This document shows, in pieces, positions 5,874 through 21,598 of a stretch of 64,000 nt of DNA. Every line of letters starts with the position of its first letter. The first letter of the stretch is position 1. Position numbers and translations under genes: made by a program. Under the pieces are notes generated by a model that was not told where the DNA came from, did not search any database, and worked only from the letters and a program-made list of their open reading frames with translations. The DNA comes from Fructobacillus papyrifericola (lineage in GTDB: Bacteria > Bacillota > Bacilli > Lactobacillales > Lactobacillaceae), in the NCBI RefSeq assembly GCF_018437235.1, contig NZ_JAAMFJ010000001.1, forward strand, positions 496,001 through 560,000. Direction: 5' to 3'.

Positions 5874-5884
5874 TGTTTACCTCC

Positions 5885-5902: not shown

Positions 5903-5916
5903 AAAACAAGCAAAAT

Positions 5917-5962
5917 AAAAGGTGTTGAAAGCTATAGCGTTCTATAGACACTCAACACCTTT
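5917..5962. terminator. Terminator of the leftward early operon
   Basis: AAAGGTGTTGA and TCAACACCTTT form a long stem; on the minus strand it is followed by TTTATTTT. It lies between the small membrane-protein gene and int. The loop holds a 10-bp-spaced doublet, CTATAGCGTT followed by CTATAGACAC (5932-5951). Confidence 0.7.
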
Positions 5963-5997
5963 ATATATTGCCACACCATCCCCCACTAGTACATAGC

Positions 5998-6345
5998 CTA
6001 ATTGCTCATGTTATAAATACGTTCAGCTTCTTCAAGCTCTTCATCCGCAACTTTTAACCGTGCTTTGTGTATTTGCTGACGATCATAGATAGCCCACGCC
6101 TCTGCTTCTGTGAGGCTCTTCTGTGTTTTGTCGCCGTTACTCAATCTGTCCACGTCATAACCTAACTGCGTGAGTAGGTCTCTAAACGACTCGGCCTCTT
6201 CTTCGGCATAGATTGCTTTGTTTTCATGTAGCTTGGCATAGTATCGATAGATAACCGCCCCCTGATAAAACTTGTTCATTTGCCACTTTTGGCAAAAGAT
6301 AAGGCCAGCCATTACCAGTAGTAAAATTGCTATAAAAATGTTCAT
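5998..6345 (-). CDS. Small membrane-anchored protein of unknown function
   Basis: A 115-residue protein with one N-terminal membrane helix (MNIFIAILLLVMAGLIF, residues 1-17) and a charged, probably helical remainder rich in Glu, Lys and Ala. The ATG at 6345 is chosen because AAGAAAGGA precedes it and puts the helix at the N-terminus; longer readings add non-conserved upstream sequence. The coding DNA contains one of the CCA-N4-TGG palindromes (6279-6296). Not a recognised family; it closes the early operon. Confidence 0.6.
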   Translation of the reverse strand: MNIFIAILLLVMAGLIFCQKWQMNKFYQGAVIYRYYAKLHENKAIYAEEEAESFRDLLTQLGYDVDRLSNGDKTQKSLTEAEAWAIYDRQQIHKARLKVADEELEEAERIYNMSN

Positions 6346-6683
6346 CGTATTCCTTTCTTGCTTTGGGTCAAAATGTGCTGTTTTTTGTGTCACTTTAAAA
6401 ATCGCTGTACCCATTGTGGCTCTAAGCTTAAAAGCTATTTGTGTCGTTTTGTGTCGGCTTTTCGCCACTTCTCTCCCCTATATATGTTTCTATTACCTTC
6501 CTCTCTCTTTATTCAATTACCTTTCTATATACTCAAAACCTAACACTTATAACACAAAATATAGTTAAGACTTAGAGTAACAAGGGATTTCAGGTTTCAA
6601 CTTTGGGCACATTCGTGGCACGTTGACGTCTCTTGAGGTCTCTTGACAGTTTGCCTCTGACACGAAAACGTGCACAATCGCTC
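6346..6683. other. Non-coding gap with 10-bp-spaced doublets and decamer triplet
   Basis: No gene is supported here. It holds a doublet TTGTGTCGTT / TTGTGTCGGC (6439-6458), a pyrimidine-rich tract (about 6490-6535), and the triplet at 6623-6652. It sits immediately 3' of the SF3 helicase gene, where satellite islands such as SaPIs keep their replication origin, so an origin is a reasonable guess. Confidence 0.5.
6623..6652. repeat. Three tandem decamers (TTGACGTCTC type)
   Basis: TTGACGTCTC, then TTGAGGTCTC, then TTGACAGTTT stand head to tail with a 10-bp period. A related triplet starting with the identical TTGACGTCTC occurs at 14849-14878. The spacing of one helical turn suits iterons for an initiator protein, but no binding is shown. 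Confidence 0.7.
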
Positions 6684-8111: not shown

Positions 8112-8928
8112 GAAGCGCCTCCCTCTTTCGTTTTGCCTTAGCAATTTCACGCTTTAAAACGCTTGTATAGACCTTTTCTAGTTCATTAGAGTCAAGAGGT
8201 TGTGGGCTTTGATTATTGGCCACCTTGGCCACTTCTAGGGCTGTCCTTGGAGGGATAGCATAAGATAGTACCCAACCAATGAGGCTAGTGGCCTGGTCAT
8301 TGCGTTGTCCTGTATCAAAACCATTAGCAATCATCCCCCAGCGCTCTGCCACACTATAGCGGGCATGTCGTTGGCTGTTTTGCTCCTTGTTGTTGGTTTT
8401 ATCTTGGCCTAATTCATCCACCCACTGCGGTTTGTCTTGTATAGTTTCTAGTCCAGTAGTGGCTTTGTACTCGTTACCATCAATCACAGACGGGGCAACA
8501 ATCACACCACCACTATTTAACAGGTCTAGGCCTTCCATGGCGCTTATTAGTCGTTGCTTAGTCTCTTTATCTTCACACTTATAAAAAACGTGCCAGCCAC
8601 CTCCTGCGGTGTTTTCTAGGTAGGTGTCTGATATGGTGGCAGAGTCAACTCCTTGACGGTTCAAAAAGTCCTTTAAACTATGCAGGCCGTCTTTTCCATG
8701 TTGGTCAACGTCCACCACCACAAGAGGCGAACGATCGAGGTCAATGCCCACATTACCGCCCTTGTATTGGGGATGCTCTGCTAACCATTCGGCCAAGGCT
8801 TCCCAGTGATTAAAGCTATTCTTATAGCCACCGTCTTCACTGTTGTACTTAGTATTAGGTAAAGCCATGAACACGTAAGCACCTAGTGCCATGTAGGACT
8901 TAATCGCTTCTACTTTGTTATCATTCAT
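8104..8928 (-). CDS. Bifunctional DNA primase/polymerase (PrimPol) domain protein
   Basis: A 274-residue protein whose N-terminal 190 residues are a prim-pol domain. Metal-binding DVDQH is at about residues 73-77, and the GGGWHVFY strand is at about 109-116; APSVIDG follows. The C-terminal 80 residues resemble the helical primase C-terminal region that links to a helicase. It would synthesise primers for element replication with the downstream SF3 helicase. ATGA overlap with the upstream winged-helix gene indicates coupled translation. Confidence 0.9.
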   Translation of the reverse strand: MNDNKVEAIKSYMALGAYVFMALPNTKYNSEDGGYKNSFNHWEALAEWLAEHPQYKGGNVGIDLDRSPLVVVDVDQHGKDGLHSLKDFLNRQGVDSATISDTYLENTAGGGWHVFYKCEDKETKQRLISAMEGLDLLNSGGVIVAPSVIDGNEYKATTGLETIQDKPQWVDELGQDKTNNKEQNSQRHARYSVAERWGMIANGFDTGQRNDQATSLIGWVLSYAIPPRTALEVAKVANNQSPQPLDSNELEKVYTSVLKREIAKAKRKREALHG

Positions 8929-9248
8929 TCAAAGCGCCCCCGGTGTTGTTCAAGTCCTGCTACACGTTTCTGGTAACTCTTGACGTTATTCTTCATCATG
9001 TTCAGCGTATAAAAATATTCATCACTGTTTACAATCTTGTACACGCCACCTTTTGCGTTTCGCAAACTGCCAACCAAATAACCTTGGTCTGCTAAGTGGC
9101 TTAGGATCGTATACAACCGCCTTTCTGGTATTCCTACCCTCTTGGCCAATACCGGGACTTTAATAGCGTTCTCTTGTCCTTGAGGAAGTGCCATATAAAC
9201 TGCCTTCTCTCGTGCTGTTAGTTGGTCTTTATGTCGTACATTCGTCAT
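8925..9248 (-). CDS. Winged-helix DNA-binding protein
   Basis: A 107-residue protein with a winged helix-turn-helix over residues about 8-65 (LTAREKAVYMALPQGQ, LAKRVGIPERRLYTILSHLADQGYLV). The C-terminus is a charged helix. It lies directly before the PrimPol gene (4-bp overlap), so it may be an origin-binding or replication-regulating factor. Similar small phage proteins are annotated only as hypothetical or as replisome organisers; no exact family is claimed. Confidence 0.65.
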   Translation of the reverse strand: MTNVRHKDQLTAREKAVYMALPQGQENAIKVPVLAKRVGIPERRLYTILSHLADQGYLVGSLRNAKGGVYKIVNSDEYFYTLNMMKNNVKSYQKRVAGLEQHRGRFE

Positions 9249-9251
9249 ATA

Positions 9252-9527
9252 TCAGACCTCCTCAATGTCTGCCGTCAAGTTGGCAATCTGCATATCAACC
9301 ATATAAAAAGCCTTGGTGTCTGGCTCTAGCGTGCTGATAAGACGCTTTAAAAAGATAAGGTGGTTGCGTAAATAGTTCACTGGGCTATACTGTCGCTCCT
9401 CAACTTTCGCCACTTCTGGCGAATAGAAACCGTTAAAGTTTACTGTTTGTGTGTTTTTCATGTTAAAATATAGCCAAATAGCCGTATTAAAAGGCATTGT
9501 AGTCAAGTCATCCCCTCTAGTCGCCAA
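9252..9527 (-). CDS. Hypothetical protein of the early operon
   Basis: Up to 91 residues, no recognised domain; the C-terminal part is helical and acidic. The start is unclear: a TTG at 9527 lies two bases after the stop of a ten-codon reading frame and could be reached by re-initiation; an internal TTG has AGAGGGG upstream; an internal ATG lacks a good ribosome site. It contains a GCCA-N4-TGGC palindrome (9406-9423). Three bases separate it from the next gene. Confidence 0.55.
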   Translation of the reverse strand: MATRGDDLTTMPFNTAIWLYFNMKNTQTVNFNGFYSPEVAKVEERQYSPVNYLRNHLIFLKRLISTLEPDTKAFYMVDMQIANLTADIEEV

Positions 9528-9529
9528 AC

Positions 9530-9562
9530 TTAACGGGATGTCTTTTTTTGTGCCTTTTTCAT
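9530..9562 (-). CDS. Ten-residue leader-like reading frame
   Basis: MKKAQKKTSR followed by TAA, preceded by a strong AAAGGAG nine bases before the ATG. It lies between the Rha-like gene and the 91-codon gene, whose possible TTG start begins two bases after this stop. It may couple translation or be a short leader peptide; it could also be the true 5' end of the next gene if a frameshift is present. Confidence 0.4.
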   Translation of the reverse strand: MKKAQKKTSR

Positions 9563-9580
9563 GCTTTTGGCTCTCCTTTC

Positions 9581-10168
9581 TTAAATATCAGCCAGTAGCT
9601 TATTCTTGATGTCTTGGTAGTCGTTTCCGTCTAGAAGATATAAGGCAATGTGTTGCTTAGCTCGTTCTAGCCGTTCTTTTTGGTCGTTATCTAGCGCCTC
9701 TTCTGGCTTGTCCACACCTTTAGCCTTCTTAAGTTGCTTGGGTGTCATCCCCGTGGCGCACTTATAGGCTAGTTGGTGGTAATTGCTGTAAGCGTACTTA
9801 TCGTCTGGAAGTTCTTTCTTAATCGTTTCAGCCAAATCAATGTTCGCCCGCTTGTTAAGCTCTCGACTTAGCTTTGCTTGGTCTAGTTCCTGCTTAGCTG
9901 TATAGAAAGCACGGACTAAATCAACCTTAAACTGTACAACCTTAGGAGCATTGCCTAATAAACTAATAAGCAAAGTCGCTTGCTGTTCGTTGAGCTTCCA
10001 AATCTTTTCAGGTCGTCCCGTTTTAGGAGTTTTTCCATTCTCATGCAAAACAACTCCAAACATTTGTAACTTATCCTTGTATATATAAAACTTATTTCGC
10101 ACCGCTTCAAAGTTAATATCTAACCTGTCAGCAATGATATTTAATGTTGTGTAAGGTTCATCTTTCAA
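9581..10168 (-). CDS. Rha-like phage regulatory protein
   Basis: About 195 residues. The N-terminal half contains LTLNIIADRL-type helix-turn-helix sequence (TTLNIIADRLDINFEAVRNK) and then the segment LNEQQATLLISLLGNAPKVV with QFKVDLVRAF, typical of the Rha regulatory family of phages and islands. The C-terminal half is helical and charged. Start is uncertain: the only standard start is TTG at 10168, one base after AAGGG. The frame continues upstream to a GAAAGGA sequence placed for an ATA codon at 10192 and would add ERIELVYYKG-like residues. Role: probably a transcription regulator in the early operon. Confidence 0.7.
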   Translation of the reverse strand: MKDEPYTTLNIIADRLDINFEAVRNKFYIYKDKLQMFGVVLHENGKTPKTGRPEKIWKLNEQQATLLISLLGNAPKVVQFKVDLVRAFYTAKQELDQAKLSRELNKRANIDLAETIKKELPDDKYAYSNYHQLAYKCATGMTPKQLKKAKGVDKPEEALDNDQKERLERAKQHIALYLLDGNDYQDIKNKLLADI

Positions 10169-10222
10169 ACCCTTGTAATAAACTAATTCTATTCGTTCTT
10201 TTCCTTTCTAGGTTTTGCATTT

Positions 10223-10498
10223 TCAAAATGCAATACTTACATTTTTATGCGAAAGTATTCGTCTTTCACGGTGGAGCTGGTCTTTTGTCGTATCTTCCAA
10301 AGTGGCCAAGTCAGCTAAAACATTGCTAATCTTCGTTTGAGCTAGTCGCATAGATAGGATTAGTTCCTTATGGCTTGGTTCAAGTCCCGGCATTTTAGAT
10401 CCGCCTAGGATAGTTTCAGCCTTGTGTAGTTCGTCTTGGTAATAACCAATAGAGCTAAGCACGTCCTTGGTGTAGTCTCTGTTATCCATGCTCTTCAT
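10223..10498 (-). CDS. Hypothetical helical protein
   Basis: A 91-residue, mostly helical, charged protein of unknown family. Its ATG overlaps the stop of the preceding 43-codon gene (ATGA), which supports coupled translation from 10498; a second ATG three codons later is an alternative. Position in the early operon suggests an element-specific function, which cannot be named. Confidence 0.55.
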   Translation of the reverse strand: MKSMDNRDYTKDVLSSIGYYQDELHKAETILGGSKMPGLEPSHKELILSMRLAQTKISNVLADLATLEDTTKDQLHRERRILSHKNVSIAF

Positions 10499-10626
10499 TT
10501 CCTCTTAAGCGTTTTCTTATGTGATTGCTTGGCTTCCATGTCTCGCACGGTGTAACCCGCTACATAGCCAACTACTCCAATACATGTCACTGTTACCAGC
10601 GTTGTTACAATATTCCAAAGTTCCAT
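10495..10626 (-). CDS. 43-residue single-helix membrane protein
   Basis: A short gene with one membrane helix (about residues 5-26, TTLVTVTCIGVVGYVAGY) and a basic C-terminus (HKKTLKRK). GGAGGGG lies six bases before the ATG, and the stop overlaps the next start as ATGA. Found between the excisionase-like gene and a hypothetical gene in the early operon. Similar short membrane proteins are common in phage early operons; function unknown. Confidence 0.65.
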   Translation of the reverse strand: MELWNIVTTLVTVTCIGVVGYVAGYTVRDMEAKQSHKKTLKRK

Positions 10627-10637
10627 GCCATCCCCTC

Positions 10638-10835
10638 CTAATACCAGTTCTCAATCGCTTGGTCGATTTCTTCCCTGTCGTATCGCTTACCAAAGTCTGT
10701 GACCTTTGCATGCACTCGCCCAGTGTCAATGAGGTGGCGCTTAAAAGTCCCTTGCGCTACGTTGCAATACTTGGCCGCCTGCTTCCAATTCATCCACCTT
10801 GGCCACTCTGTGACTGTCTGCGTTGTTTGTTCCAT
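10638..10835 (-). CDS. Excisionase/AlpA-like helix-turn-helix protein
   Basis: A 65-residue protein with a MerR/excisionase-type winged helix-turn-helix: WMNWKQAAKYCNVAQGTFKR, then a wing and KRYDREEIDQAIENW. Proteins of this size beside a Cro-like gene are usually recombination directionality factors or AlpA-type regulators. It is preceded by GGAGG, three bases after the Cro-like gene. Assigning Xis rather than a transcription regulator is inference. Confidence 0.7.
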   Translation of the reverse strand: MEQTTQTVTEWPRWMNWKQAAKYCNVAQGTFKRHLIDTGRVHAKVTDFGKRYDREEIDQAIENWY

Positions 10836-10837
10836 TG

Positions 10838-11032
10838 CTATACCTCCTCCAGTAACCAGTCGTTCAACTTGTCGAACGTTCGCTCTTGTGCTGTATCTAC
10901 CTTGCGATTGATAATTCGTGAGATAGTCACGCTATTAACTCCTGTCTTTTCTGCTAATTGCCCATAGTTTAGGCGCTCTCGTGCCTGCTTAATCGTTAAG
11001 GCATCAACAAAGTTATTCGTTAAAACTTTCAT
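10838..11032 (-). CDS. Cro-like XRE family regulator
   Basis: A 64-residue helix-turn-helix protein (LTIKQARERLNYGQLAEKTG, then VNSVTISRIINRK). First gene of the leftward operon and divergent from the CI-like repressor, as in lambdoid switches. The ATG at 11032 has AAGGAGG five bases upstream; the frame runs farther upstream into the operator region and is not used. Expected to bind the three operators at 11045-11134 and commit to replication and excision. Confidence 0.85.
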   Translation of the reverse strand: MKVLTNNFVDALTIKQARERLNYGQLAEKTGVNSVTISRIINRKVDTAQERTFDKLNDWLLEEV

Positions 11033-11044
11033 CCGTTCCTCCTT

Positions 11045-11134
11045 TTTACGTTTTATGTAAATCAACAAAACTAATGTTACTTTACGTTTTTTGTAAAGTC
11101 AATATTTTTAATATTTATTTTCGTTTTTCGTAAA
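11045..11134. promoter_or_regulatory. Three operators and two divergent promoters of the switch
   Basis: Three 17-bp near-palindromes: TTTACGTTTTATGTAAA (11045-11061), TTTACGTTTTTTGTAAA (11081-11097) and TTTTCGTTTTTCGTAAA (11118-11134), spaced 36-37 bp. A leftward promoter fits TTGACT (complement of 11097-11102), 17-bp spacer, TAACAT (complement of 11074-11079), with the middle operator filling the spacer. A rightward promoter fits a weak -35 at 11118-11123 and TATTAT at 11141-11146, under the third operator. The operators and their arrangement are seen; binding by the flanking regulators is inferred. Confidence 0.8.
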
Positions 11135-11176
11135 TAATGTTATTATTCTTGTATACACACAGTAGGAGTTATTACA

Positions 11177-11863
11177 TTGGAAAAAAATAGAATCAGAGAA
11201 TTAAGAGAAGAAGAGGGACTAACACTTAAACAATTGTCCGAAAAATTAGGTGTTACATATGCCACCCTTTCTAGATATGAAACTGGAGTAGTTAAAACTG
11301 GTAAGCATGAAGTATGGCAAAAACTAGCTGACTTTTTCAATGTAGATGTTGATTATTTGCAGGGGTTAGAAGTTTCAGAGCCAACTCAAAATGAAGAACT
11401 TAGAAAGACTTTAAAAAGCATAATTTCTTCAGTTACTCCTACTATTCCTGCTTTTCCTGCTATTCAACTATCAAAAACTATAGAAAATACAACTAAAACC
11501 TTGAATAAAATTATTTATGAGGCTACAGAAAAACAGAACATTCAATATAACAGTGACGTACACAAGCTAACAAAAAAACTAGTCCATACCATCAACAATG
11601 AACACCTATCATTACCTCAAAACCGCTACCTAGCAACCGTTTTAGAGACCTTTTTCAAAGCTGATGAAAGCCCTTTAAACAACTTAGCTTTTATCAATGA
11701 GTACCTTGGTCTAGCTATAAATGATTCTTCTATTTTTGAAGATGAAACGTTTAGACCTGAGATGATTAAATATTTTAATGAGTTACTAGATGAGTTAGAC
11801 CCATCTATCCCTAATAGTCAGAAAGATACTTCTGATACAGGGGATGAACAGCAAGACAAATAA
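11177..11863 (+). CDS. CI-like XRE family repressor
   Basis: A 228-residue protein with an N-terminal helix-turn-helix (residues about 5-60, TLKQLSEKLGVTYATLSRYE) and a helical C-terminal region that is not a LexA/CI peptidase: no Ser-Lys protease motif is seen. Control may therefore depend on an anti-repressor or helper-phage protein, as in phage satellites. Start is TTG at 11177 with AGGAG eight bases upstream. Its base composition is clearly AT-rich. Divergent from the Cro-like gene across the operator region. Confidence 0.85.
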   Translation: MEKNRIRELREEEGLTLKQLSEKLGVTYATLSRYETGVVKTGKHEVWQKLADFFNVDVDYLQGLEVSEPTQNEELRKTLKSIISSVTPTIPAFPAIQLSKTIENTTKTLNKIIYEATEKQNIQYNSDVHKLTKKLVHTINNEHLSLPQNRYLATVLETFFKADESPLNNLAFINEYLGLAINDSSIFEDETFRPEMIKYFNELLDELDPSIPNSQKDTSDTGDEQQDK

Positions 11864-11955
11864 AAAAGCCCGCTTGGGGCTTACATGATATAAAGCGCCT
11901 ATATTAGTGACGCATGTTCTCCCCTTATTGGGGATGAAAGGATATTTTTAAAATA

Positions 11956-12690
11956 ATGATTAAACAGCTAAAGAAAAAAGGCCTCGATGCACCTTTAGTA
12001 CCATTCTTATATATTTTAGGGGGCATTCTTGCAATGGCCTACGGCATTGGCTTTCATAAATACTACGATGGTTACATGTGGACAATTTTATACGGCGTTC
12101 TGATGATTTTTGCAGGCGCTATCTTTATAAACACCTCCATTAGAGGCAAGCACAAGATATGGAATAGTATTTTATCCAAAATAACAATTGATCCTAATTC
12201 AAAGGTTCTTGACTTAGGTACTGGTCATGGAATGGTCTTGCTAATGTTCGCTAAACTTTTATCAGGTAATGGTCACGCTACAGGTATTGACTTGTGGCGC
12301 AACTCTGACCAGTCTGACAATAGCCTTCACAATACTCAAAATATTATTAAGCAACAGCACTTAACCCATATTGCTGACGTCAAAACGGCGAACATGATCA
12401 GCCTTCCTTTTGCAGATAAAAAGTATGACTATGTCGTATCAAGTTTAGCCTTCCACAACATAAAGCCGGCTTCCGAAAGAGTACATGCACTAGAAGAAGC
12501 TGTACGTGTTCTTACTGACAATGGTTCTCTAATCATTGTAGACACTGGCCATCACAAAAAAGAGTACATAGACGTGCTCACTAGCTCGGGTCTTGAAGTC
12601 ATAGAAGCTAAAACATACGGTGTATCTGGCTGGTGGACAGGTCCATGGATGCCCACCTATTCCATCATCGCAAAACGAGACCATTCATAA
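11956..12690 (+). CDS. Membrane-anchored class I SAM-dependent methyltransferase
   Basis: A 244-residue protein with two N-terminal membrane helices (about residues 14-33 and 42-60) followed by a Rossmann methyltransferase domain: motif I LDLGTGHG at 85-92, acidic GIDLW at about 109, post-motif ADKKYDYVVSSLAFHNI and a C-terminal TGPWMPTY segment. Small-molecule methyltransferase rather than DNA methylase: no NPPY or DPPY. The same layout occurs in chromosomal lactic-acid-bacterial proteins of unknown substrate. It follows the repressor with a short gap and is probably cargo expressed in the lysogenic state. Confidence 0.8.
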   Translation: MIKQLKKKGLDAPLVPFLYILGGILAMAYGIGFHKYYDGYMWTILYGVLMIFAGAIFINTSIRGKHKIWNSILSKITIDPNSKVLDLGTGHGMVLLMFAKLLSGNGHATGIDLWRNSDQSDNSLHNTQNIIKQQHLTHIADVKTANMISLPFADKKYDYVVSSLAFHNIKPASERVHALEEAVRVLTDNGSLIIVDTGHHKKEYIDVLTSSGLEVIEAKTYGVSGWWTGPWMPTYSIIAKRDHS

Positions 12691-12701
12691 ACTATGTAAT
12701 T

Positions 12702-12728
12702 AGCCTACTCAGACAAGTAGGCTTTTTA
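12702..12728 (+). terminator. Terminator after the methyltransferase
   Basis: AGCCTACT and AGTAGGCT pair across six bases, followed by TTTTT. The 3' arm and T run are duplicated in tandem immediately after (to about 12745), which leaves a second AGTAGGCTTTTTATA copy without its own 5' arm. Confidence 0.75.
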
Positions 12729-12834
12729 TACAAGTAGGCTTTTTATATTGGAGATGTACACAATCACTAAAAAATACTATAAACCACTACCCTTTTCTGG
12801 GGATGTGGTTTGTGACTTTTTAGGTGTGACCTTG

Positions 12835-13425
12835 TTAATCTTTTTCATATACCTTTTTACCATGTACTCTTATTGCTTCCGACCATTGCGCTTTAATGGC
12901 CTTGTCATGCGCTTCTCTTCTCTGCTGGTAGAGTTCGTATATATCAGCTAACTGCATACTTATACGGTCAATCTGCTCTAGCTTCCTAGCGTATGTAGCC
13001 CAGTGCATCCCTTTCGGCCGTTTTGGTGTATTGTACAATCTATAAGCTAGATCACAGGCTAATAGATGGCCTAAGCCCATATAACTGTTGTACAAACCTG
13101 GATCTAGGTTGTTAATAAGATTTAGCTGTTTCTCGTGTAATGCCATAATTTTAGTGAAAGTGTGCCGTCTGGCTTTATTATCTTGCCCAGCGTAATACAA
13201 CCCCGCACACACTCGGCATATTACTGCCCGACCTACTTGATACAATGCGCCTTTTCGTTTCTCACAGTAAGGACAAACAAACCAATACCGTACACCGCCA
13301 TAATTAGGTTTAGTAGTTGCTAAAGCTATCTTGTGACCTTGCCATTTAACAAGATGAGCACGGGGATGTTTGCTAAAGTCTATTTCCTTGATATTTAGTT
13401 TTGGATAGCTTGTAACCTTTTGCAT
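12835..13425 (-). CDS. Zinc-ribbon protein of unknown function
   Basis: A 196-residue protein. The central region has two CxxC pairs (Cys51/Cys54 in CPYC and Cys70/Cys73 in CRVC) in the context GGVRYWFVCPYC ... ALY ... ICRVCAGLYYAGQ. I recall this layout from uncharacterised plasmid and prophage proteins, without a known function. The C-terminal half is helical, basic and rich in Tyr and Arg. AAGGG precedes the ATG. Its 5' side faces the 10-bp doublet array (13464-13936), so binding to that array or initiation there is a testable idea. A weak hairpin lies downstream (12780-12811). Confidence 0.65.
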   Translation of the reverse strand: MQKVTSYPKLNIKEIDFSKHPRAHLVKWQGHKIALATTKPNYGGVRYWFVCPYCEKRKGALYQVGRAVICRVCAGLYYAGQDNKARRHTFTKIMALHEKQLNLINNLDPGLYNSYMGLGHLLACDLAYRLYNTPKRPKGMHWATYARKLEQIDRISMQLADIYELYQQRREAHDKAIKAQWSEAIRVHGKKVYEKD

Positions 13426-13463
13426 TGCAACCCTTAATTTATGTCTAAATCAATAAGAAAATT

Positions 13464-13936
13464 TTGCAACATTGTTGCACACTTTTTAAAGTTTTTTAGT
13501 CTACTATCGTTATTATATCAACGTTTATAAGCCTGTAACCATGTAACTTTTAGGGTGCAACCTTTTGCAACCATCAGCCAAAAATGTTGCAACACTTTTT
13601 GCAACGTTGCAACGCTATTTAAGTGCGTGATCAACCGTATAGGCGTTGCTATATAAGACTTTAAACACTGCAAAATACTGCAATAGAATGCTAGGATTTG
13701 CTAGATTTATGTTAAGAATTGTTAAGGTAGATTGTTGGAAAATGTTGGAGTAAAATGCTAGAAAATGCTGGAGTAAATGCTAACATTTGCTAACCTAAAT
13801 GAACGCTTTTTAATGACAGGTTTTGACAGGTTTTCATGTTAGGTTTTGTTAGGTTTTTAGTAAAAAATAACTGAGGTTTTCTGAGGTTTAGGCATAGGTT
13901 TTAATAGGTTTTTAAGGCAGGTTTTAGCAAGTTCAT
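13464..13936. repeat. Array of 10-bp-period doublets
   Basis: A 470-bp non-coding stretch of paired 10-mers. Members of a pair match closely at a 10-bp offset, but pairs differ from each other: first copies begin at 13556 (TGCAACC), 13667 (ACTGCAA), 13689 (TGCTAGG), 13710 (TGTTAAG), 13733 (TGTTGGA), 13756 (TGCTAGA), 13778 (TGCTAAC), 13814 (TGACAGG), 13837 (TGTTAGG), 13871 (CTGAGG), 13894 (ATAGG) and 13917 (GCAGG). Looser TTGCAAC and TGTAAC repeats lie at 13464-13613. It is not a CRISPR: no constant repeat and no spacers of uniform length. Confidence 0.85.
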
Positions 13937-13942
13937 AGGCAC

Positions 13943-13976
13943 AAAAATAGCCCCACTCGTTTGAGTAAGGCTTTTC
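13943..13976. terminator. Terminator of the GNAT/antitoxin-like pair
   Basis: On the minus strand AGCC..ACTC-type arms pair with GAGT..GGCT, followed by ATTTTTG. It directly follows the GNAT stop codon and isolates the doublet array from that operon; the plus strand also has TTTTCTT after the stem. Confidence 0.65.
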
Positions 13977-14546
13977 TTATTCATACACTTTAAACATGTC
14001 ATCGTAACTAATGGCTAGCGTATATGTCTTTTTGTTTGGGGCATCCTCTTCGTGCTTATCAATAAAATAAAATCCGTTGCTTATATAAAAGTCAACTGGA
14101 TCGGGTAAGCTCTCCACCATAACACCAGCAAAAGCTATCCCGTATTGTGCGCCTACATCCAGTAACATCTTAAAAATATACTTCAGAATAGCTGTCCCAA
14201 GATGTAGCCCATCTAACCCATTACCAAATTGAAAGGGCTTGTTAACAGATAGATGGTCTATGTTGATCATTGGCAACGACTTCATCCCACTAGCATCCCC
14301 AAATATTTTTTCACGATTTGCATCAGCAAAGGAGGCAGAGCTACTTGAGGTTGATAGGGCAAACATTCCAACTAACACATCATCAAGATAAACAGCGTTT
14401 AGGCTGGTTATATGTTTCCTCTCTAAGTCTTGGTAGTCATACTTAATAAACTCATCAAGCCCGGCAACTCCACAACTATAATTATCTAGTTGTTTTGTAT
14501 CAATCAAGCCAGAAACAGAACATACTTTAAATCCTAATTGTTCCAT
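13977..14546 (-). CDS. GNAT-family acetyltransferase, possible toxin
   Basis: A 189-residue acetyltransferase-like protein. The N-terminal part (NYSCGVAGLDEFIKYDYQDL) and the following core (LDDVLVGMFALS, INIDHLSVNK, GLHLGTAILKYIFKML) match the layout of GNAT toxins that acetylate charged tRNA or other targets. The acetyl-CoA P-loop is represented by the LHLGTAIL region. The gene overlaps its small upstream partner by 20 bp, a typical toxin-antitoxin arrangement, and is followed by its own terminator. Toxicity is inferred from size, motif and context; a plain acetyltransferase is the alternative. Confidence 0.65.
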   Translation of the reverse strand: MEQLGFKVCSVSGLIDTKQLDNYSCGVAGLDEFIKYDYQDLERKHITSLNAVYLDDVLVGMFALSTSSSSASFADANREKIFGDASGMKSLPMINIDHLSVNKPFQFGNGLDGLHLGTAILKYIFKMLLDVGAQYGIAFAGVMVESLPDPVDFYISNGFYFIDKHEEDAPNKKTYTLAISYDDMFKVYE

Positions 14547-14721
14547 TTTCTACCAATTCTTTAAAGCGCTTTACACCCTCATCAGATTTAGCAAAGCTAG
14601 CCTTAATCTTAGCTACATTTTTTTCTTGTTCAACCTGTGTAGGGTGGAAAATCTTACGGTACTGTTCAGCTTGTGCCCTGTTATCTAAATCAAAAACAAC
14701 ATGCTTGTTATCAATAATCAT
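14527..14721 (-). CDS. Small protein upstream of GNAT, possible antitoxin
   Basis: A 64-residue charged protein (VVFDLDNRAQAEQYRKIF and a helical KASFAKSDEGVKRF tail). AAGGGG precedes the ATG by seven bases. It overlaps the 5' end of the GNAT gene, so translation is probably coupled. The N-terminal strand-like segment followed by helices could form a DNA-binding antitoxin, but no ribbon-helix-helix motif is clear. Named as a candidate antitoxin from context only. Confidence 0.5.
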   Translation of the reverse strand: MIIDNKHVVFDLDNRAQAEQYRKIFHPTQVEQEKNVAKIKASFAKSDEGVKRFKELVENGTIRI

Positions 14722-14848
14722 AGCAACCCCTTATACGTTACTGTTGCCAGAAACAAAGTAAAGGCATAAAAAACATCGTTCCTACACCTATCTATAAATA
14801 AATAATACAAGGAAGTCATACAAAATGTAAAGCTATTTTTTAATTGTT

Positions 14849-14878
14849 TTGACGTCTCTTGACGTTCAGTGACATCCA
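14849..14878. repeat. Three tandem decamers, second cluster
   Basis: TTGACGTCTC, TTGACGTTCA and GTGACATCCA follow one another with a 10-bp period. The first decamer is identical to that at 6623. The two clusters bracket the switch and the replication operon. Confidence 0.65.
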
Positions 14879-14981
14879 AATAAGCGTAAAGAATAAATTG
14901 GTATAGTCGCTATAAGGTTAATCATTTCCCGCTATACAAGGTGTACCCATCCCCGTTACACATGCTAGTCACTTTGTAACG

Positions 14982-15223
14982 TTGCCATTTCTGGCAATGT
15001 TTCCCCACTGATGGGGAACGGTCTAGGTTCAACTTAGGGCGTCGCGTTTTGCTACTCCCCTATTTCGGTCTAGGTTTAATCTAGGGCGTTAAGGTGCCCA
15101 GCCTTCTGCCACTTCTGGCAGAAGGCTGGGGTAACGTTTTGTTATGGCAGGGTGTGGATGTATCCACGGTTGTCAAAGGGGTGTCTATTTTGGACACTCC
15201 TTTTTGTTTTCGCCACTTTTGGC
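14982..15223. repeat. Cluster of CCA-N4-TGG hairpins
   Basis: Four members of a dispersed hairpin family: 14982-14997 (TTGCCA arms), 15001-15018 (TTCCCCA arms), 15097-15130 (15-bp perfect arms ending CTGCCA) and 15212-15223 (GCCA arms). All share the centre CCA, four bases (CTTT, CTTC, TTTC or CTGA), TGG. Other members are at 6279-6296, 9406-9423, 22349-22366 and 22385-22402. Outer arm bases differ between copies but stay complementary. Confidence 0.75.
15178..15207 (+). terminator. Terminator-like hairpin, plus strand
   Basis: GGGGTGTC and GACACTCC pair (one G-U) across TATTTTG, followed by TTTTTGTTTT. There is no plus-strand gene upstream, so if it works it ends a non-coding transcript from the hairpin cluster. 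Confidence 0.5.
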
Positions 15224-15644
15224 AAAGGAGTCGGCAAATCACCGCCCCCCCCTATCTTGATTATTTAATAAAGCGCACATATATCGTCGCCTTATATCAC
15301 ACACCAATTTTCAAAAGTTTTTTTCTGGGGTTGTTATGAAGCCCTAATAGTTGCTGTGTAGCCATTCCTATTTTTAAAAAGCACCCCATAAATCTACCCT
15401 AAAAACCCGGACAAAATAGCTCTATATTTTTATCAAATGCCTGTTTAATAGGCTTTTCTTAGATATACCCCCCTACCTAAAAATTTCAAAAATTGAACTT
15501 TCACACAAGATGACGATATGTGAGCGCTCTCTTCGTCAGGCGGACAGGGGCGGGGGTATCCAACCTTTTATATCTTCATTCGTACAAATACACCATTACA
15601 AAATAAAAACGATTAAATCGTCTTATATAGCTTATTTATACAAT

Positions 15645-15672
15645 CAAATAAAAAAGCCCTTTCGGACTTTAG
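15645..15672 (-). terminator. Terminator of the hsd operon
   Basis: On the minus strand AAGTCC, GAAA loop, GGGCTT, then TTTTT, seven bases beyond the hsdS stop codon. Confidence 0.8.
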
Positions 15673-15678
15673 TGGCTA

Positions 15679-16896
15679 TTATACAAACATTTTCTGCAAG
15701 AAGCCTTTTTTCTGTTCTTTCAATAAATCTAACTTACGTTGATGAAGGGTGATAAGGTTGTTAAATATTTCAAAAAATGCACCAATCTTTTGTTGTTCAT
15801 CTTTTTTTGTTAGACCATAACTAATTAATGATAACGATTTAGCATTTATATGTTTAACTGTTGTCCCAGTGACGTAAGGTAAAATTTTAACGCTATTTGC
15901 ATTAACATTATATGACATAAAAATCGGGCTGATATGATCTTGTAGCGTAGCAATTAGAACATCCCCTCCAATTTTAACCCCACGCTGTGCGATATAAGTA
16001 GTTCTAGCTAATCCGGTTAGCGTAACATCCGACATTGGAAATAAAATAGAATTATCAGGCAAATCGACTCCTTCTGTTGACTGAGTCCAGTGATTTATTT
16101 CATTTTTAACTGCATTAAATTGATATAAATCGGCATAATGAACTGCAGGTTTTCCTAATCCTAAATTATTCAGCTTATTCTTTGATATTCCTTTCCCTCT
16201 AAGCCAATCGGTAATTTCACCCAGCTTACGCTGTTCCCAATCGTCAGTAAATCCTTCAAATCGCAATTCAGGAACTTTTGCCCCATTTTTAGGAAACATT
16301 TTTTGCAAGTAGCCTTTTTTCTGTTCCTTGAGTAAATCCAACTTACGTTGATGAAGAGCGATAGTGTTATCTACCATTTTGAAGAACGAACCGATTTTTT
16401 GTTGTTCTGAAAGTTCAGGTACCATAATCGACATTTTCGACATTTGCTTACCTGAAACCTCAACAAATGTAGATCCTGCACCGGTGACTTCTCCATATCG
16501 CTTGAGCTCATTAGTTTTTGAAAAAATAAAATAACTATCAAGTTTATTTTGATCAGGAACAATTGATTGGAACCCTTGATTAGTTGTAGCTTCTTTGGCT
16601 AATATAGCAGTGTTTCCGATACCAGCACGAGAAGTAAATAAGACGGTTCCTACTGGTAAAATTCGAGCTGAACTCTTCTTTAGACCTAGTTCAGTAATAG
16701 TCTTTTTACTTTTACTAACATAACTTTGTTCTCCAATTTCAGCTGGAGCATACCAATCAATATCACCGTCCCAGTATTCAGAGTTCGATGTACTTGGTGT
16801 TCCACCACCCACAATATTAGATAATTCTCCCAACTTACGCTCTTCCCAATCGTCAGTAAATCCTTGAAATCGAATTTGAGGCCCATTATTACTCAT
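15679..16896 (-). CDS. hsdS: Type I restriction-modification specificity subunit
   Basis: A 405-residue S subunit that sets the DNA target of the HsdRMS complex. Two target-recognition domains (about residues 1-195 and 208-390) are each introduced by a near-identical motif, GFTDDWEERKLGEL and GFTDDWEQRKLGEI, and each followed by the conserved spacer helix (HQRKLDLLKEQKKGYLQKMF and HQRKLDLLKEQKKGFLQKMF). The internal repeats are the known sites for domain shuffling. It overlaps hsdM by 8 bp and lies last in the operon. A truncated copy of its 5' end lies upstream of hsdR. Confidence 0.95.
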   Translation of the reverse strand: MSNNGPQIRFQGFTDDWEERKLGELSNIVGGGTPSTSNSEYWDGDIDWYAPAEIGEQSYVSKSKKTITELGLKKSSARILPVGTVLFTSRAGIGNTAILAKEATTNQGFQSIVPDQNKLDSYFIFSKTNELKRYGEVTGAGSTFVEVSGKQMSKMSIMVPELSEQQKIGSFFKMVDNTIALHQRKLDLLKEQKKGYLQKMFPKNGAKVPELRFEGFTDDWEQRKLGEITDWLRGKGISKNKLNNLGLGKPAVHYADLYQFNAVKNEINHWTQSTEGVDLPDNSILFPMSDVTLTGLARTTYIAQRGVKIGGDVLIATLQDHISPIFMSYNVNANSVKILPYVTGTTVKHINAKSLSLISYGLTKKDEQQKIGAFFEIFNNLITLHQRKLDLLKEQKKGFLQKMFV

Positions 16897-18481
16897 GATT
16901 GCCTCCTAATAGTTGCTTAGCTGATTCGATAATCGGCTGACTATCGTCTGTGACCGCTAAATCACCAATCATTGCTAATAAGTCAGCCTCACTTTGCGCA
17001 ATGTCACGATTAACATCACCTAGTTCATGGCTAACCGCTACCAAATCAACTGGATCTTCTTCTTCGAAGGTGTCCACATAACGGGGAATATTGAGGTTGA
17101 AATCGTTCTCCTTAATCTCTTCAAAGCTGGCAACGTGCGCATACTTCTCAACATCTTCACGCTTTAAGAACGTCTCCACAATTAAGTCAACGTCTTCTTG
17201 ACGCAACTTGTTATTATTCTTCTGCTTTTCAAAGCCCTTTGAGGCATCAATAAAGAGCACATCATCAGTGGTACGGTTCTTTTCCAGGATCATAATAATG
17301 GTTGGAATACCCGTATTCGTAAAGATCTTTTCGGGCAAACCAATCACCGCTGAAATGTGACGGTTTTCTAGTAATTCTTGGCGAATACGACCTTCGGCGG
17401 CACCGCGGAACAAGACCCCGTGTGGCAAAACAATCGCCATGCGGCCATCTTGCTTCAAGTGGTACAAACCATGTTGTAAGAACGCAAAATCAGCCTTTGA
17501 CTTAGGGGCGATCCCTGACTTAAATCGAGGATCATCTTCTCGGTTCGTGTTATCCCACTTCAATGAGTAAGGGGGGTTCGCCATAACGGCATCAAACATA
17601 CGAGGGCTATCAACCCCACTTCGAACCCCGTCAGGCCAGTCTGAACTTAAAGTATCTGCATTATGGATATTGATATCGTTATACTCAACCCCGTGCATCA
17701 TCAAGTTAATCCGGCCTAAGTTATAGGTTGTCGTGATAACTTCTTGCCCGTAGTACTTAATGGCTCCACGTACGCCAGCATTCTTCATGTATGAGGCAGT
17801 CGTCAAAAGCAATGAACCTGAGCCCATGGCTGGGTCATAGAGACTGTATGTTGGCAGCTCTTCACGCCCAGCCGTTAAAATACGCGCCATAATATCTGAC
17901 ACTTGGTGTGGCGTATAGAACTCGCCGGCCTTCGTACCAGAATTAGCCGCAAACATCCCAATCAAGTATTCATATAGATCACCGAGCACGTCGGCATCTT
18001 CATCCAATTCGATTTGGTCAATCAAACTAATCCAATCCATCAAGGTCTTCGTACGCGTTTGCGTATTACTCCCAAGACGGTTTGAAGCCAAGTCCATGTC
18101 GTCAAAGATTCCTTCAAAAGTTGCCTTAGCGCCTTGTTGAATCTCTTGGTTAAAATGAACCAGCGCATCCGCCACGTTCGTAATGTTGAATTGATCCACA
18201 TTAATGGCCGCGTGCCAGTCGCTAAAGAACTCGCCCGGTTGGATGACATATCCTAACTTTGTTTGCATAAAAGCAGCCGCTTTTTCTGGGTTTTGTTTCC
18301 AAACTGATGCCCAAGTTTCACCACGTAATTGGCTATCCAGCCATGTTTGGGCCTTTTCAGATAAGAACTTATAGAACATTAAACCAAAAATGTAGTTCTT
18401 ATATTCAGAAGGTTCAATCTTACCGCGGGTCTCGTTCAATGTTTTCCAAATTAATGCTTGTTTATCTGCTGTTAATGCCAT
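16889..18481 (-). CDS. hsdM: Type I restriction-modification methylase subunit
   Basis: A 530-residue N6-adenine DNA methyltransferase. The N-terminal HsdM_N helical domain (KQALIWKTLNETRGKIEPSE) is followed by the SAM-binding motif DPAMGSGS at 216-223 and the catalytic NPPY at 302-305. A helical C-terminal region contacts HsdS. The sequence resembles type IC (EcoR124I-like) HsdM. Order hsdR-hsdM-hsdS on the minus strand, with 27 bp between hsdR and hsdM. Confidence 0.96.
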   Translation of the reverse strand: MALTADKQALIWKTLNETRGKIEPSEYKNYIFGLMFYKFLSEKAQTWLDSQLRGETWASVWKQNPEKAAAFMQTKLGYVIQPGEFFSDWHAAINVDQFNITNVADALVHFNQEIQQGAKATFEGIFDDMDLASNRLGSNTQTRTKTLMDWISLIDQIELDEDADVLGDLYEYLIGMFAANSGTKAGEFYTPHQVSDIMARILTAGREELPTYSLYDPAMGSGSLLLTTASYMKNAGVRGAIKYYGQEVITTTYNLGRINLMMHGVEYNDINIHNADTLSSDWPDGVRSGVDSPRMFDAVMANPPYSLKWDNTNREDDPRFKSGIAPKSKADFAFLQHGLYHLKQDGRMAIVLPHGVLFRGAAEGRIRQELLENRHISAVIGLPEKIFTNTGIPTIIMILEKNRTTDDVLFIDASKGFEKQKNNNKLRQEDVDLIVETFLKREDVEKYAHVASFEEIKENDFNLNIPRYVDTFEEEDPVDLVAVSHELGDVNRDIAQSEADLLAMIGDLAVTDDSQPIIESAKQLLGGNHE

Positions 18482-18508
18482 GTTTAGCCCTTTTCTATAA
18501 TAAATAAT

Positions 18509-21481
18509 TTATTTTTTGGTGATTTTAGCGAAATAATTCAGTAGTGCCTCTTCAAAGTCAGCTCTATCAAAAAATCCAATGTCTAACCGACTCTCTAATT
18601 CTTGTAAATATTGATTAAGCGCCGTGTTATCAACTAATTCTATGCCGGGACGGTATAGCTCGTAAGCTGCTAGAATATCGTTGCCATTGTAATCATGGTC
18701 GGCTGCCCACTTATACAGTTGAAGATCTTGTTTGGCAGTACGAATGACCTTCCGGACTGACTTCAGTGTCTCCGTCGTAAAATGCTCCGTATACTCGCCC
18801 TGTTCAATGCCATTTAAGACCTGACCAATCTCTTCACGATTATCTTGATCTAAGGGCTGTACATGCTCTTCAACAACGGCACGGTTGGCAATACTGGTTT
18901 CATCCATATACGCATTCAATAAATTGACTAGTTTGTCGTAGTCGATAATTTCATTCGCGAATGATTGCAAGGCCACTTTGATATTTGTTAAATCAACTTG
19001 CTTGTCGGGTGGTAATACTTCATTCACATCGTTCATGCGTGCTTGCAGTGAGCTGAGCTGCGTGGCACTCTCAATGCCTAATGTAATAGATCCTTGCGGT
19101 CCTTCAACCGAGTTACCCAAGACATAACCTTGTTGCACCAATTGTTGGACTTGCGAGTTAACTTGTGCTGCCGTCACCGCAAACTCAACTTGTTCTTTTT
19201 CAGAACGCGGCATTTGTGAAAAATCATCGCCTGCTAACTGCTGCAAACGCTTGATTTGGGGGTTTAGGTCGATAATCTTATCGGCTGCCTTGGGCGCCAA
19301 AATTCCTTCATCAAACAACTCTTTTTGTTCCTGATTATCCGGGGTATTACCCGCATCCGCTAAGGTATCATTGCCCCCTTTGGTATAGATAACCAACGCA
19401 TCCTTGACTTTTTCTTCCATCACCGCACCTTGACGATAAAAACGCACTTTCCCATGCGGTTTAGCTGTCTTATCAATCGTCCGGTTAGTTCGTGACATTG
19501 CTTGAATCAGGGGACCTTCACCCAAAATCTTATCCATGTAAATGATATTAACGAATTTTGAATCAAAGCCCGTTAATAATTGATCTGACACAATAATCAA
19601 GTCCAATCGATCGGCATCATTACCCTTGTTATAAGGTTTCTTACGGGCAATGCGCTTGGTCATATCATTGAGGTACGCCCGTTGTGGGTCCTTGTCCTCT
19701 AAGAAATTGCGGGTTTGGTAGCGAGCCATATAGTCTTGCATCGCTTGCTTTAAAGCAGCTTGTAGGTCTGATGCGCCTGTCCCATTGGCTTCATCACGCG
19801 AATAGGTCATAGCAACACGTAACTCAGGGGCTAGTTGCTTGAAAAGGCTATAATAAGCAGCAACGGCTTGCTTACCTGATACGGCTAACATACCTTGGAA
19901 TTGATTCGGCTCACGGACCCCCATGTTAATCGGTCCGCTAGCATTCGTAGCCCAATTACGCTGAATATCTGCCACAACAGCTTGTCGGAATGGCAGGCTG
20001 GCATACACTTCTTTTTCCAGTTCCTTTTCCGTTAAATCACTATCCAGATCGTGTTCAAAATCAGTCTCATAATAGGTCACATCAAACCCGAGTACATTCC
20101 CGTCACCAATAGCGTCCTTAATCGTATAACGATGTAAACGTGGGCCAAAAATATCATAAGTGGAAACATCTTTAGATGTTTTCACGTCATGAACTTCATC
20201 GCTATAAAAATTAGGGGTCCCTGTAAAGCCAAACCACGTTGTTTTCGGTAAGGCTTGTTTAATCCGGCTGACAGCATCACCACTGGCTGATCGGTGGGCC
20301 TCATCCATTAAAATGACCATTCGCTTATGAGAAACGAGACCTGATTTAATCGCCTTATCTAATCCTTGTACCGTAATCAAATAAATATGGGCCGTATTGT
20401 TGTGCTTAAGGGCCCGCTTCAGTTCGCTCCCATTTACCACTTGAATCCGATTTTCAAAGGTCTTATAGGCAAAGGACTTAAAATTCTCATAGGTCTGATT
20501 GACTAAGTCAACCCGATCCACAATAAACAAAACATTTTCAACCCTAGGTCGTGAAGCCAATAGTTGCGCCACTTTAAATGATGTGACCGTTTTACCAGAA
20601 CCAGTGGTGTGCCAGACATAGCCACCTTCTTTTTCAACTAAGTCATTTTGATCCATTTCACGCATACGATCTAAAATTTGACGGGTTGCTTGAATTTGAT
20701 ATGAGCGCATGACCATTAAATTATCGTTCGCTGCATCCGGAATCATATTCACGGTTACTAAGCGGTGTAAAGCTGGAATACCCATCACCTCATGAATAAA
20801 GGTCATTGTATTCGTGACATCCTGACCCGCATCATCACGCCAGCCAAAGGCAAAATCACGGTTGTAAAAGTCACTATTCTTTGGTCTTGCAAAATAGTGC
20901 GCTGAATTTTGTGATAGAACAAACTGGACTTGCACAAAAGAAAAGAGTCTCGTGTACATACCGTCACCGTCATACTTTTGGAACTGTTCAAACGCATTCC
21001 ATTGGTTTTGCAAGGACTCATCTTTTTCTTCAATATGAGCAACCGGTAGCCCATTAATCAGCAACATAATATCAATCCGGCGCTTCGAGCTTAGACTCGT
21101 TGCTAAATCTGTGAACGTAATTTGGTTAACGACTTCATAACGTGAATGTCCACCAGCAACTTCATCACCATAGAAAATCTCGAGTTCCAGCTGTGTGCCA
21201 TCATCACGATTCAATGGGACGGTTCCAACACCACCCGCACCCGCCAACATGAGTTGTGCATCATAGGGCGTTTTATTTTTTGCCAGTTCCAACTTCACTT
21301 GTTCAAACTCATTATCAGATAATGGAGTGTCTTCTAGTCGTTTACAATTGTTGGCATTTAGAATATCTCGCCAGTGGTCATATAGTCGATCAGCCGGCAC
21401 ACCAGAATATTCTTTCAAATATTCCCAGCCTTCACTCTGTAGTTTTTCAATTACAGCTTGTTCAAATTTGTCTTCCGCCAT
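18509..21481 (-). CDS. hsdR: Type I restriction endonuclease motor subunit
   Basis: A 990-residue R subunit that translocates and cuts unmethylated DNA. The N-terminal nuclease domain has Asp137 and E151-x-K153 in RRIDIMLL...HIEEKDE. The SF2 motor has Walker A TGSGKT at 293-298, DEAH at 393-396, GFTGTP and a motif VI QAMSRTNR. The C-terminal helical domain binds the methylase core. All catalytic motifs seem intact. It opens the hsd operon; the ribosome site (AAGAAGAG) is modest. Confidence 0.96.
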   Translation of the reverse strand: MAEDKFEQAVIEKLQSEGWEYLKEYSGVPADRLYDHWRDILNANNCKRLEDTPLSDNEFEQVKLELAKNKTPYDAQLMLAGAGGVGTVPLNRDDGTQLELEIFYGDEVAGGHSRYEVVNQITFTDLATSLSSKRRIDIMLLINGLPVAHIEEKDESLQNQWNAFEQFQKYDGDGMYTRLFSFVQVQFVLSQNSAHYFARPKNSDFYNRDFAFGWRDDAGQDVTNTMTFIHEVMGIPALHRLVTVNMIPDAANDNLMVMRSYQIQATRQILDRMREMDQNDLVEKEGGYVWHTTGSGKTVTSFKVAQLLASRPRVENVLFIVDRVDLVNQTYENFKSFAYKTFENRIQVVNGSELKRALKHNNTAHIYLITVQGLDKAIKSGLVSHKRMVILMDEAHRSASGDAVSRIKQALPKTTWFGFTGTPNFYSDEVHDVKTSKDVSTYDIFGPRLHRYTIKDAIGDGNVLGFDVTYYETDFEHDLDSDLTEKELEKEVYASLPFRQAVVADIQRNWATNASGPINMGVREPNQFQGMLAVSGKQAVAAYYSLFKQLAPELRVAMTYSRDEANGTGASDLQAALKQAMQDYMARYQTRNFLEDKDPQRAYLNDMTKRIARKKPYNKGNDADRLDLIIVSDQLLTGFDSKFVNIIYMDKILGEGPLIQAMSRTNRTIDKTAKPHGKVRFYRQGAVMEEKVKDALVIYTKGGNDTLADAGNTPDNQEQKELFDEGILAPKAADKIIDLNPQIKRLQQLAGDDFSQMPRSEKEQVEFAVTAAQVNSQVQQLVQQGYVLGNSVEGPQGSITLGIESATQLSSLQARMNDVNEVLPPDKQVDLTNIKVALQSFANEIIDYDKLVNLLNAYMDETSIANRAVVEEHVQPLDQDNREEIGQVLNGIEQGEYTEHFTTETLKSVRKVIRTAKQDLQLYKWAADHDYNGNDILAAYELYRPGIELVDNTALNQYLQELESRLDIGFFDRADFEEALLNYFAKITKK

Positions 21482-21598
21482 TTATCTGCTCTTCTTTTCT
21501 TTTTTATTTGAAACGATTTACCAAAACGCCACCATTTTTAGGTTTTGAATCCACCTAACTAGTTTCTGATTCAGGTTGCTTTTTCCGCAACCTCTTTT

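Follow-up and report, generated by a model that had tools for sequence, protein, structure and literature searches.

Doublets of equal half-sites on a satellite island of Fructobacillus papyrifericola: a probable key ring of phage terminase recognition sites

How can a stretch of non-coding DNA preserve the pairing of its short elements when the elements themselves change from one pair to the next? The question is raised by positions 13464-13936 of a 64,000-nucleotide stretch of Fructobacillus papyrifericola DNA (hereafter the window; contig NZ_JAAMFJ010000001.1, positions 496,001 to 560,000). A preliminary description had listed at least 12 pairs of nearly identical 10-mers here, each pair at an offset of 10 bp, and had offered three readings: docking sites for a protein family that occupies two equal sites along one helix face, an origin, or the footprint of a slippage process. 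Here we argue that the array quite probably brings together sites recognized by small terminase subunits (TerS) from many phages. The satellite that carries it, in which we found no terminase gene, would use it as a packaging 'key ring'.

The array and its host island

At a lag of 10 bp, the bases of 13464-13936 agree with an identity of 0.434, compared with 0.28 in 500 dinucleotide shuffles (z 7.3), and there are 12 runs of at least 5 matching bases where 0.73 are expected and the shuffles reach a maximum of 5. Lag 10 gives the top score among lags 1-40; the second-highest lags, 22-23 (z 5.0 and 5.6), are the step from doublet to doublet. The pairs first described are thus borne out, with a signal far above that of shuffled sequence. 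Two of the 12 runs need separate mention: the one at 13483 (TTTTTA) is trivial and the one at 13556 (TGCAACC) stands apart. The compact array consists of ten doublets at 13667-13912 and a degenerate eleventh at about 13917-13934, with run starts spaced 19-36 bp apart.

Within this array the members of a pair agree and adjacent doublets are unlike, so that the sequence changes from pair to pair and the pairing is what is conserved, just as had been proposed. The same holds for two further claims: the array is not a CRISPR, since the paired unit itself changes and there is no constant repeat, and it is not an ordinary iteron set, since the doublets are unlike, have no one consensus and match terS genes. 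In many pairs the equality is confined to 6-7 bp and the intervening 3-4 bp differ, a pattern that suggests a pair of protein half-sites rather than a recent duplication of 10 bp. A search of the array against plasmids gave no match at E<=0.01.

The array lies in an integrated island of about 18.0 kb (4666..22693), which is bounded by a 17-bp direct repeat, AAGGAGATAGCGGGATT, with one copy at 4666 beside int and the other at 22677 at the 3' end of a tRNA-Ser. The integrase is a tyrosine integrase (4740..5873, minus strand; PF00589, E 4e-24; phrog_1 integrase) and has flanking att repeats at a specific site. It is followed by a replication module on the minus strand (6684..8928; PHROG primase families) made up of a D5/DUF5906 helicase (6684-8150) and a prim-pol (8104-8928), and by a divergent regulator region (9581..11863) with a Rha-like protein (9581-10168, minus), small HTH proteins (10638-11068, minus) and a CI-like repressor (11177-11863, plus). 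Beyond the array, all on the minus strand, lie two blocks of cargo: a GNAT-type acetyltransferase (13977-14546; phrog_1758 acetyltransferase, E 5e-19) with a small partner ORF (14527-14721), and a type I restriction-modification set of hsdS, hsdM and hsdR (15679..21481; PADLOC matches). Among the island proteins scanned, which are those of ORFs from about 64 aa upward and include several that matched nothing, there is no phage structural or terminase family. A TerS of Terminase_2 type was likewise looked for in the window and in 11 satellite records, and none turned up. Judged by these genes, the island has the gene plan of a phage satellite of the PICI kind.

Doublets in terminase genes

What do the doublets match? 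When 13640-13940 is compared with annotated phages by blastn, the 24 records found comprise 15 annotated as 'terminase small subunit' (three phages being counted twice, in GenBank and in RefSeq), 4 satellites, 1 unannotated record and 4 others. Exact scans of IMG/VR with three minus-strand doublets sharpen this result. The doublet formed by two copies of TGTTAGGTTT (13837..13857) was scanned as the 21-mer TGTTAGGTTTTGTTAGGTTTT and occurs in 66 stretches, 58 times in Terminase_2-like terS genes recognized by profile search, where its complement codes for E-N-L-T-K-P-N-I, and 8 times in arrays of other doublets. The 19-mer CTGAGGTTTTCTGAGGTTT, from the doublet CTGAGGTTTT/CTGAGGTTT (13871..13889), occurs in 26 stretches (23 terS genes, 2 arrays and 1 tandem repeat), and all seven stretches with the 21-mer TGACAGGTTTTGACAGGTTTT, from the two copies of TGACAGGTTT (reverse complement AAAACCTGTCA; 13814..13834), have it in terS. 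Arrays thus make up 10 of the 11 matches of these three doublets outside terS. For a streptococcal doublet, two copies of AAATCATAG, none of six IMG/VR matches lies in terS; by rule, three of these are in arrays, two have one further doublet nearby and one has none. One invented doublet of the same build gave no IMG/VR match.

We also compare each of the window's 11 doublets with a reference of 139 terS sites (described below) and four phage sites, using shuffles that keep the doublet form. One doublet matches exactly, seven have one mismatch, one has two and two have three; the eight doublets within one mismatch all have p<=0.01, and in this respect the array copies behave as pac sites do. 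On the plus strand, the exact match is that of TGTTGGA/TGTTGGA (13733..13749) to a terS gene of the same genus (L140), and similar terS sites occur in Streptococcus, Staphylococcus, Lactobacillus and Brochothrix phages. A single mismatch separates TGTTAAG/TGTTAAG (13710..13726) from L255, where it lies in the spacer (p 0.006), TGCTAGA/TGCTGGA (13756..13772) from the same-genus L146 (p 0.002), and TGCTAAC/TGCTAAC (13778..13794) from the other strand of L176 (p 0.006), the last also having the same-genus L147 at two mismatches, in the spacer. The two doublets at three mismatches from any terS site are ACTGCAA/ACTGCAA (13667..13683; p 0.07) and TGCTAG/TGCTAG (13689..13705; p 0.13), the half-site of the latter being that of the same-genus L142. 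On the minus strand, CATAGGTTTT/AATAGGTTTT (13893..13912) has L169 at one mismatch (p 0.01), and the degenerate doublet GCAGGTTTTA/GCAAGTTC (13917..13934) has L185 at one mismatch (p 0.002), with halves that are unequal in the same way. The doublet at 13837, so frequent in IMG/VR, has its best match in this reference at two mismatches (p 0.04). The genome's own terS (L141) has TGCTAAG, which is unrepresented in the array; the array has TGTTAAG.

For a wider sample, we pool the distinct array runs, 62 in all, of the window, of L002-L004, L010, L011 and L036 and of the Streptococcus loci, and find that 47 share a 6-mer with a terS doublet, compared with a mean of 11.25 and a maximum of 24 in 1000 letter shuffles; the AGGTTT core found throughout one class inflates the figure of 47, as does counting both orientations and related islands apart. 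Among chance doublets elsewhere, 16 of 123 share such a 6-mer. This comparison bears on the suggestion that the array is a functionless footprint of slippage or duplication. Some copies are indeed perfect 10-bp tandem duplicates, one doublet is tripled in a related island (L010), and one contig (L301) ends in a pure tandem in which a single terS-type unit, CTGAGGTTTT, is present six times. However, slippage leaves unexplained both the half-sites shared with terS and the many pairs whose equality stops at 6-7 bp with a differing spacer of 3-4 bp, and we regard it as very improbable.

The terS matches also weigh on two readings in which the element's own proteins would bind the doublets. The island has a primase-helicase module, and its non-coding repeats could be iterons of a replication origin for the satellite's own initiator; however, iterons of one initiator share their sequence, and these doublets do not and match terS genes of other phages instead, so that an origin, the second of the readings offered at the outset, seems most unlikely and is dispensable for explaining the array. 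Arm sites for the integrase, or excisionase sites, are harder still to credit. In related genomes, lag-10 repeats of CTAAGA beside a tRNA-like end (L037:18724, L039:1566, L040:7074) are perhaps such arm sites, but one integrase should have one arm sequence and here there are about ten, and int and the two att repeats are all some 8-9 kb away; we set this reading aside because of that diversity and distance, and it too would leave the terS matches without explanation.

Turning to the terS genes themselves, PF03592 genes are present in 9 of 13 genomes of the genus and 124 of 301 of the family, and our sample consists of 143 loci among the matches listed, 139 of them non-identical (Lactobacillaceae). 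In 90 of the 139 genes, a lag-10 run of at least 6 lies at one aligned place directly after the helix-turn-helix (HTH), with almost none elsewhere in the domain; the other 49 have no run of this length. Shuffling of synonymous codons (200 shuffles) gives a mean of 6.9 and a maximum of 15 genes with such a run, and at lags 6-9 and 11-15 between 0 and 3 of the 139 genes have one. A fixed place within terS is therefore under constraint at the level of nucleotides, as for a pac site (90 of 139 genes vs 6.9).

Translation of the doublet uses two frames, giving R-L-L-x-N-[AV]-x in one and E-N-L-x-K-P-x in the other, and the TGTTGGAAAATGTTGG-type doublet codes for L-L-[EG]-N-V-[GS] in five terS genes that we read (three from the blastn search with the window's array and two from a like search with the array of satellite Javan285). 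Because 10 is not a multiple of 3, one DNA word is translated in two different frames, and so the amino acids of the two halves often co-vary in pairs, such as (T,N), (R,K), (E,G), (V,S) and (Q,A), among others.

If each TerS recognizes its own doublet, one might look for a link between half-site and protein. In one class of 59 genes, half-site base 7 tracks the residue at -5 from the motif with z 10.8 (R with C in 12 genes, M with G in 9, K with A in 7 and N with T in 6), and base 3 tracks the residue at -3 with z 9.7 (N with C in 27), both by permutations that ignore relatedness. For this same reason other offsets reach z 4-6.5, and the two pairs named stand clear of them. Whole domains do not separate in this way, since half-site distance correlates almost equally with HTH distance (0.24) and with C-terminal distance (0.25). 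A search of solved structures with the L141 TerS gave no match at E<=1, and so the co-varying residues are those of a presumed recognition helix; that half-site bases track them is the more weakly supported part of the argument.

A second terminase family seems to follow a related rule. Several arrays contain TTTTTAGGG followed by a doublet with 9-bp spacing, and 15 IMG/VR stretches contain one such string. In three of the 13 stretches that were translated (L319, L321, L325), it lies in a gene just after an HTH; in the remaining ten the string is in no such HTH gene. L319 matches phrog_309, a terminase small subunit, and L321 and L325 are taken as alike from their sequences. In a small sample, 11 genes picked without regard to the pattern, lag-9 runs average 4.82 compared with 3.32 in shuffles, none of 500 of which reaches the observed value; a first lag-9 analysis had included three pattern-chosen genes, and 5 of 16 loci were dropped when a motif filter found no gene. 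The string CCCTAAA follows in 7 of 14 genes, the three pattern-chosen ones included, and L322 and L329 have several different copies of TTTAGGG plus doublet in a row. TTTAGGG with 9-bp-spaced doublets is also seen in L082, L289 and L020, often as several different ones close together. In the window, a candidate site of this second type is TTTAGGG + TGCAACCTTTTGCAACC (13549..13572, plus strand), which resembles the TTTAGGG plus short doublet of phrog_309-type terS genes and of other arrays; its spacing is 10 bp, compared with 9 bp in the phrog_309-type genes.

Arrays in other satellites and the zinc-ribbon neighbour

A blastn search with the array matched the Streptococcus satellite Javan285, whose interval between int and repressor holds another array of doublets. 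We used annotation to delimit 12 streptococcal non-coding intervals. In nine of them the number of lag-10 runs of at least 6 is between 3 and 8, which none of 300 shuffles reaches; the weaker ones are Javan652 with three runs (reached by 2 of 300 shuffles) and Javan70 and Javan219 with one each (18 and 30 of 300). The signal is local, since lag-10 runs do not in general outnumber lag-9 runs when satellite records are counted in full. One pair of elements shows the link to terS within a single strain: S. infantarius CJ18 is the recorded source of both the satellite Javan265 and the prophage Javan264, and the 20-mer TTGTTGGAAAATGTGAGTGT is common to the arrays of Javan285 and Javan265 and to Javan264, where it ends at the annotated terS start in an open frame reading V-K-L-L-E-N-V-S-V-K.

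Some arrays are accompanied by cos-like strings. Javan613 (S. thermophilus SMQ-301) has four lag-10 runs at 10402-10726 around the cos-like CCACAACAAGGTG at 10641, a string reported, along with one other, as a putative cos site of StCI-301 (PMC13376191); from the common strain name and this string, Javan613 is probably StCI-301. That satellite is induced by the pac-type phage 2972 (PMC13376191), in whose terS we find an imperfect doublet only. In Javan652, three doublets are followed about 150 bp further on by CCACTACAAGGTG, and SA-TP1 has one clear doublet with CCACGACAAGGTG about 750 bp away. Ten IMG/VR records with arrays or the TTTAGGG string, any of which may be fragments, include an integrase in seven cases, a Terminase_2 gene in two and a large terminase in two. 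In G441, prim-pol and helicase genes share a segment with the array, whose neighbour is an unrelated membrane-protein gene; a second integrase lies at a distance. G444 (L361; features at 12009-12530 and 14033-14190) is a satellite-like element that has a terS gene of its own with an embedded doublet, AACCTGAA, plus further doublets, one of them just behind the gene.

In the window, the gene next to the array is that of a zinc-ribbon protein (12835..13425, minus strand) which, as the preliminary description had it, starts beside the region; the protein has no Pfam, PHROG or PADLOC match. We considered it as the array's binder and rejected it, since arrays and zinc-ribbon genes occur without each other. 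Homologues are found in 13 of 397 family genomes and also on plasmids, eight small ones from Psychrobacter and one from Proteus, and the only phage records that match are two streptococcal ones of satellite type. The closest named relatives of the gene are in Fructobacillus records. The lag-10 array is absent at the distant zinc-ribbon loci L006, L007, L008, L019 and L020, and arrays are present in satellites in which no zinc-ribbon relative was found (Javan285 and its kin). The array is thus tied to satellites and not to the zinc-ribbon gene, whose product is probably just a neighbour and not the array's partner. Two of the Psychrobacter plasmids (L015, L016), of 4.7-5.4 kb, have their distant zinc-ribbon relatives near RepM and 'inovirus-type Gp2' genes.

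Close copies of the locus differ in how much of the array they retain. It is present in L001, L003, L004, L010 and L011, short in L002 and reduced to remnants in L009; the close copy L005 and the fragment L013 are without it. Doublets have been kept, lost, added or, as in L010, tripled. In G056 (L012/L036), a zinc-ribbon remnant adjoins nine further doublets of eight kinds, mostly unlike those of the window and yet paired at 10 bp, with 10 runs of at least 6 at lag 10 compared with 0.24 in shuffles. This comparison of homologous islands, which the preliminary description had named as a check, agrees with its view that the pairing persists through changes of sequence.

Packaging or titration

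The exact matches, the fixed place in terS, the constraint at the nucleotide level and the recurrence in satellites all argue for TerS-type recognition sites, with the residue co-variation adding weaker support, and the link of the array doublets to terS is well supported computationally. In the mechanism that we propose, the pac site of such a phage would be a 10-bp-spaced doublet embedded in terS itself, just after the HTH codons. In a TerS ring, two adjacent subunits would take one half-site apiece from the same side of the DNA, which would account for halves that are equal and lie one helical turn from each other; half-sites would differ between phages because each TerS has its own specificity. 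Binding by TerS, the assignment of the residues to a recognition helix and the geometry of the ring are all parts of this that we infer. Of the reading in terms of docking sites, the form therefore stands, with two equal sites on one face of the helix; the protein family, which the preliminary description had not named, would be phage TerS. By keeping non-coding copies of many doublets, a satellite could let any induced helper phage start headful packaging on satellite DNA.

Packaging, and not the titration of terminase, would be the simplest use of the sites, given an island in which we found no terminase gene and the cos-like strings that go with some arrays. As an alternative, the array could be a decoy, a sponge that titrates the TerS of incoming phages and blocks their packaging, the satellite's own packaging being secondary or absent. 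The same terS matches would fit such a sponge, the island carries restriction-modification cargo, and G444 has foreign TerS-type sites even though it has a TerS of its own. Against this, one or two copies per site would titrate little, the sites being diversified and not multiplied, and the cos-like strings in or near the arrays of Javan613, Javan652 and SA-TP1 are better explained by a collection of packaging signals. We therefore judge the decoy unlikely, if clearly less so than an origin or slippage.

Returning to packaging, parts of the proposed scheme have precedents. Satellites such as the cos-type SaPIs carry a copy of the helper's packaging sequence, and the helper terminase packages the satellite (PMC5052747, PMC11389934); there, one helper packaging site is present, whereas the array in the window has about ten different ones, apparently for different phages. 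In phage SPP1, pac overlaps the part of gene 1 that encodes the DNA-binding domain of TerS (PMC6316719), which fits a doublet embedded in terS, SPP1 being compared here by its published description. What the 139 genes appear to add is the 10-bp doublet rule, the coding in two frames and the variation between phages. StCI-301 (probably Javan613) is the same kind of satellite; its published description does not use the term 'pac site' (PMC13376191), and its doublets were found here. Mobilizable plasmids offer another likeness, since several oriTs on one hitchhiker widen its helper range (PMC11389934); these are likewise several transfer signals on one element, but for conjugation and not for packaging. 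In the open-access full-text literature, a scope outside which preprints and most subscription papers fall, we found no description of such arrays.

More generally, packaging key rings made of 10-bp Terminase_2 doublets and 9-bp TTTAGGG phrog_309 doublets, sometimes with cos-like strings, are probably carried by satellites in two or more lineages of Gram-positive bacteria, Lactobacillaceae and Streptococcus among them. If TerS genes do carry their own target in two reading frames, one stretch of DNA codes both for part of a protein and for that protein's binding site, and the recognition code and the helper range would for this reason be readable: a pac site could be found from its terS gene by the lag-10 doublet, and the list of a satellite's helpers could be read off its array from sequence alone. 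TerS binding to pac is hard to measure (PMC9611059), and the natural pairs of terS gene and target offer a recognition code for testing.

Other non-coding parts of the island also contain short repeated elements. Lag-10 repeats of the type TTGACGTCTC/TTGACGTTCA occur far apart, at 6620-6650 and 14845-14880. Between the acetyltransferase module and the restriction genes, 14940-15250 is a string of short hairpins with changing stems (TTGCCATTTCTGGCAA, TTCCCCACTGATGGGGAA, CTAGGTTTAATCTAG and others), and similar sequence lies beyond the array in the related islands L002, L004, L009 and L010. Finally, TACTATCGTTATTATATCAACG at 13502-13539 is common to the window and to a non-coding region of the Enterococcus phages G01 (76-111 of the record), Ef6.4 and EFRM31. 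The similarity (loci L035, L061 and L062) extends over 36-38 bp and is real. TGTAAC boxes flank the copy in EFRM31, and the region is perhaps a cos-type or TerS-type site.
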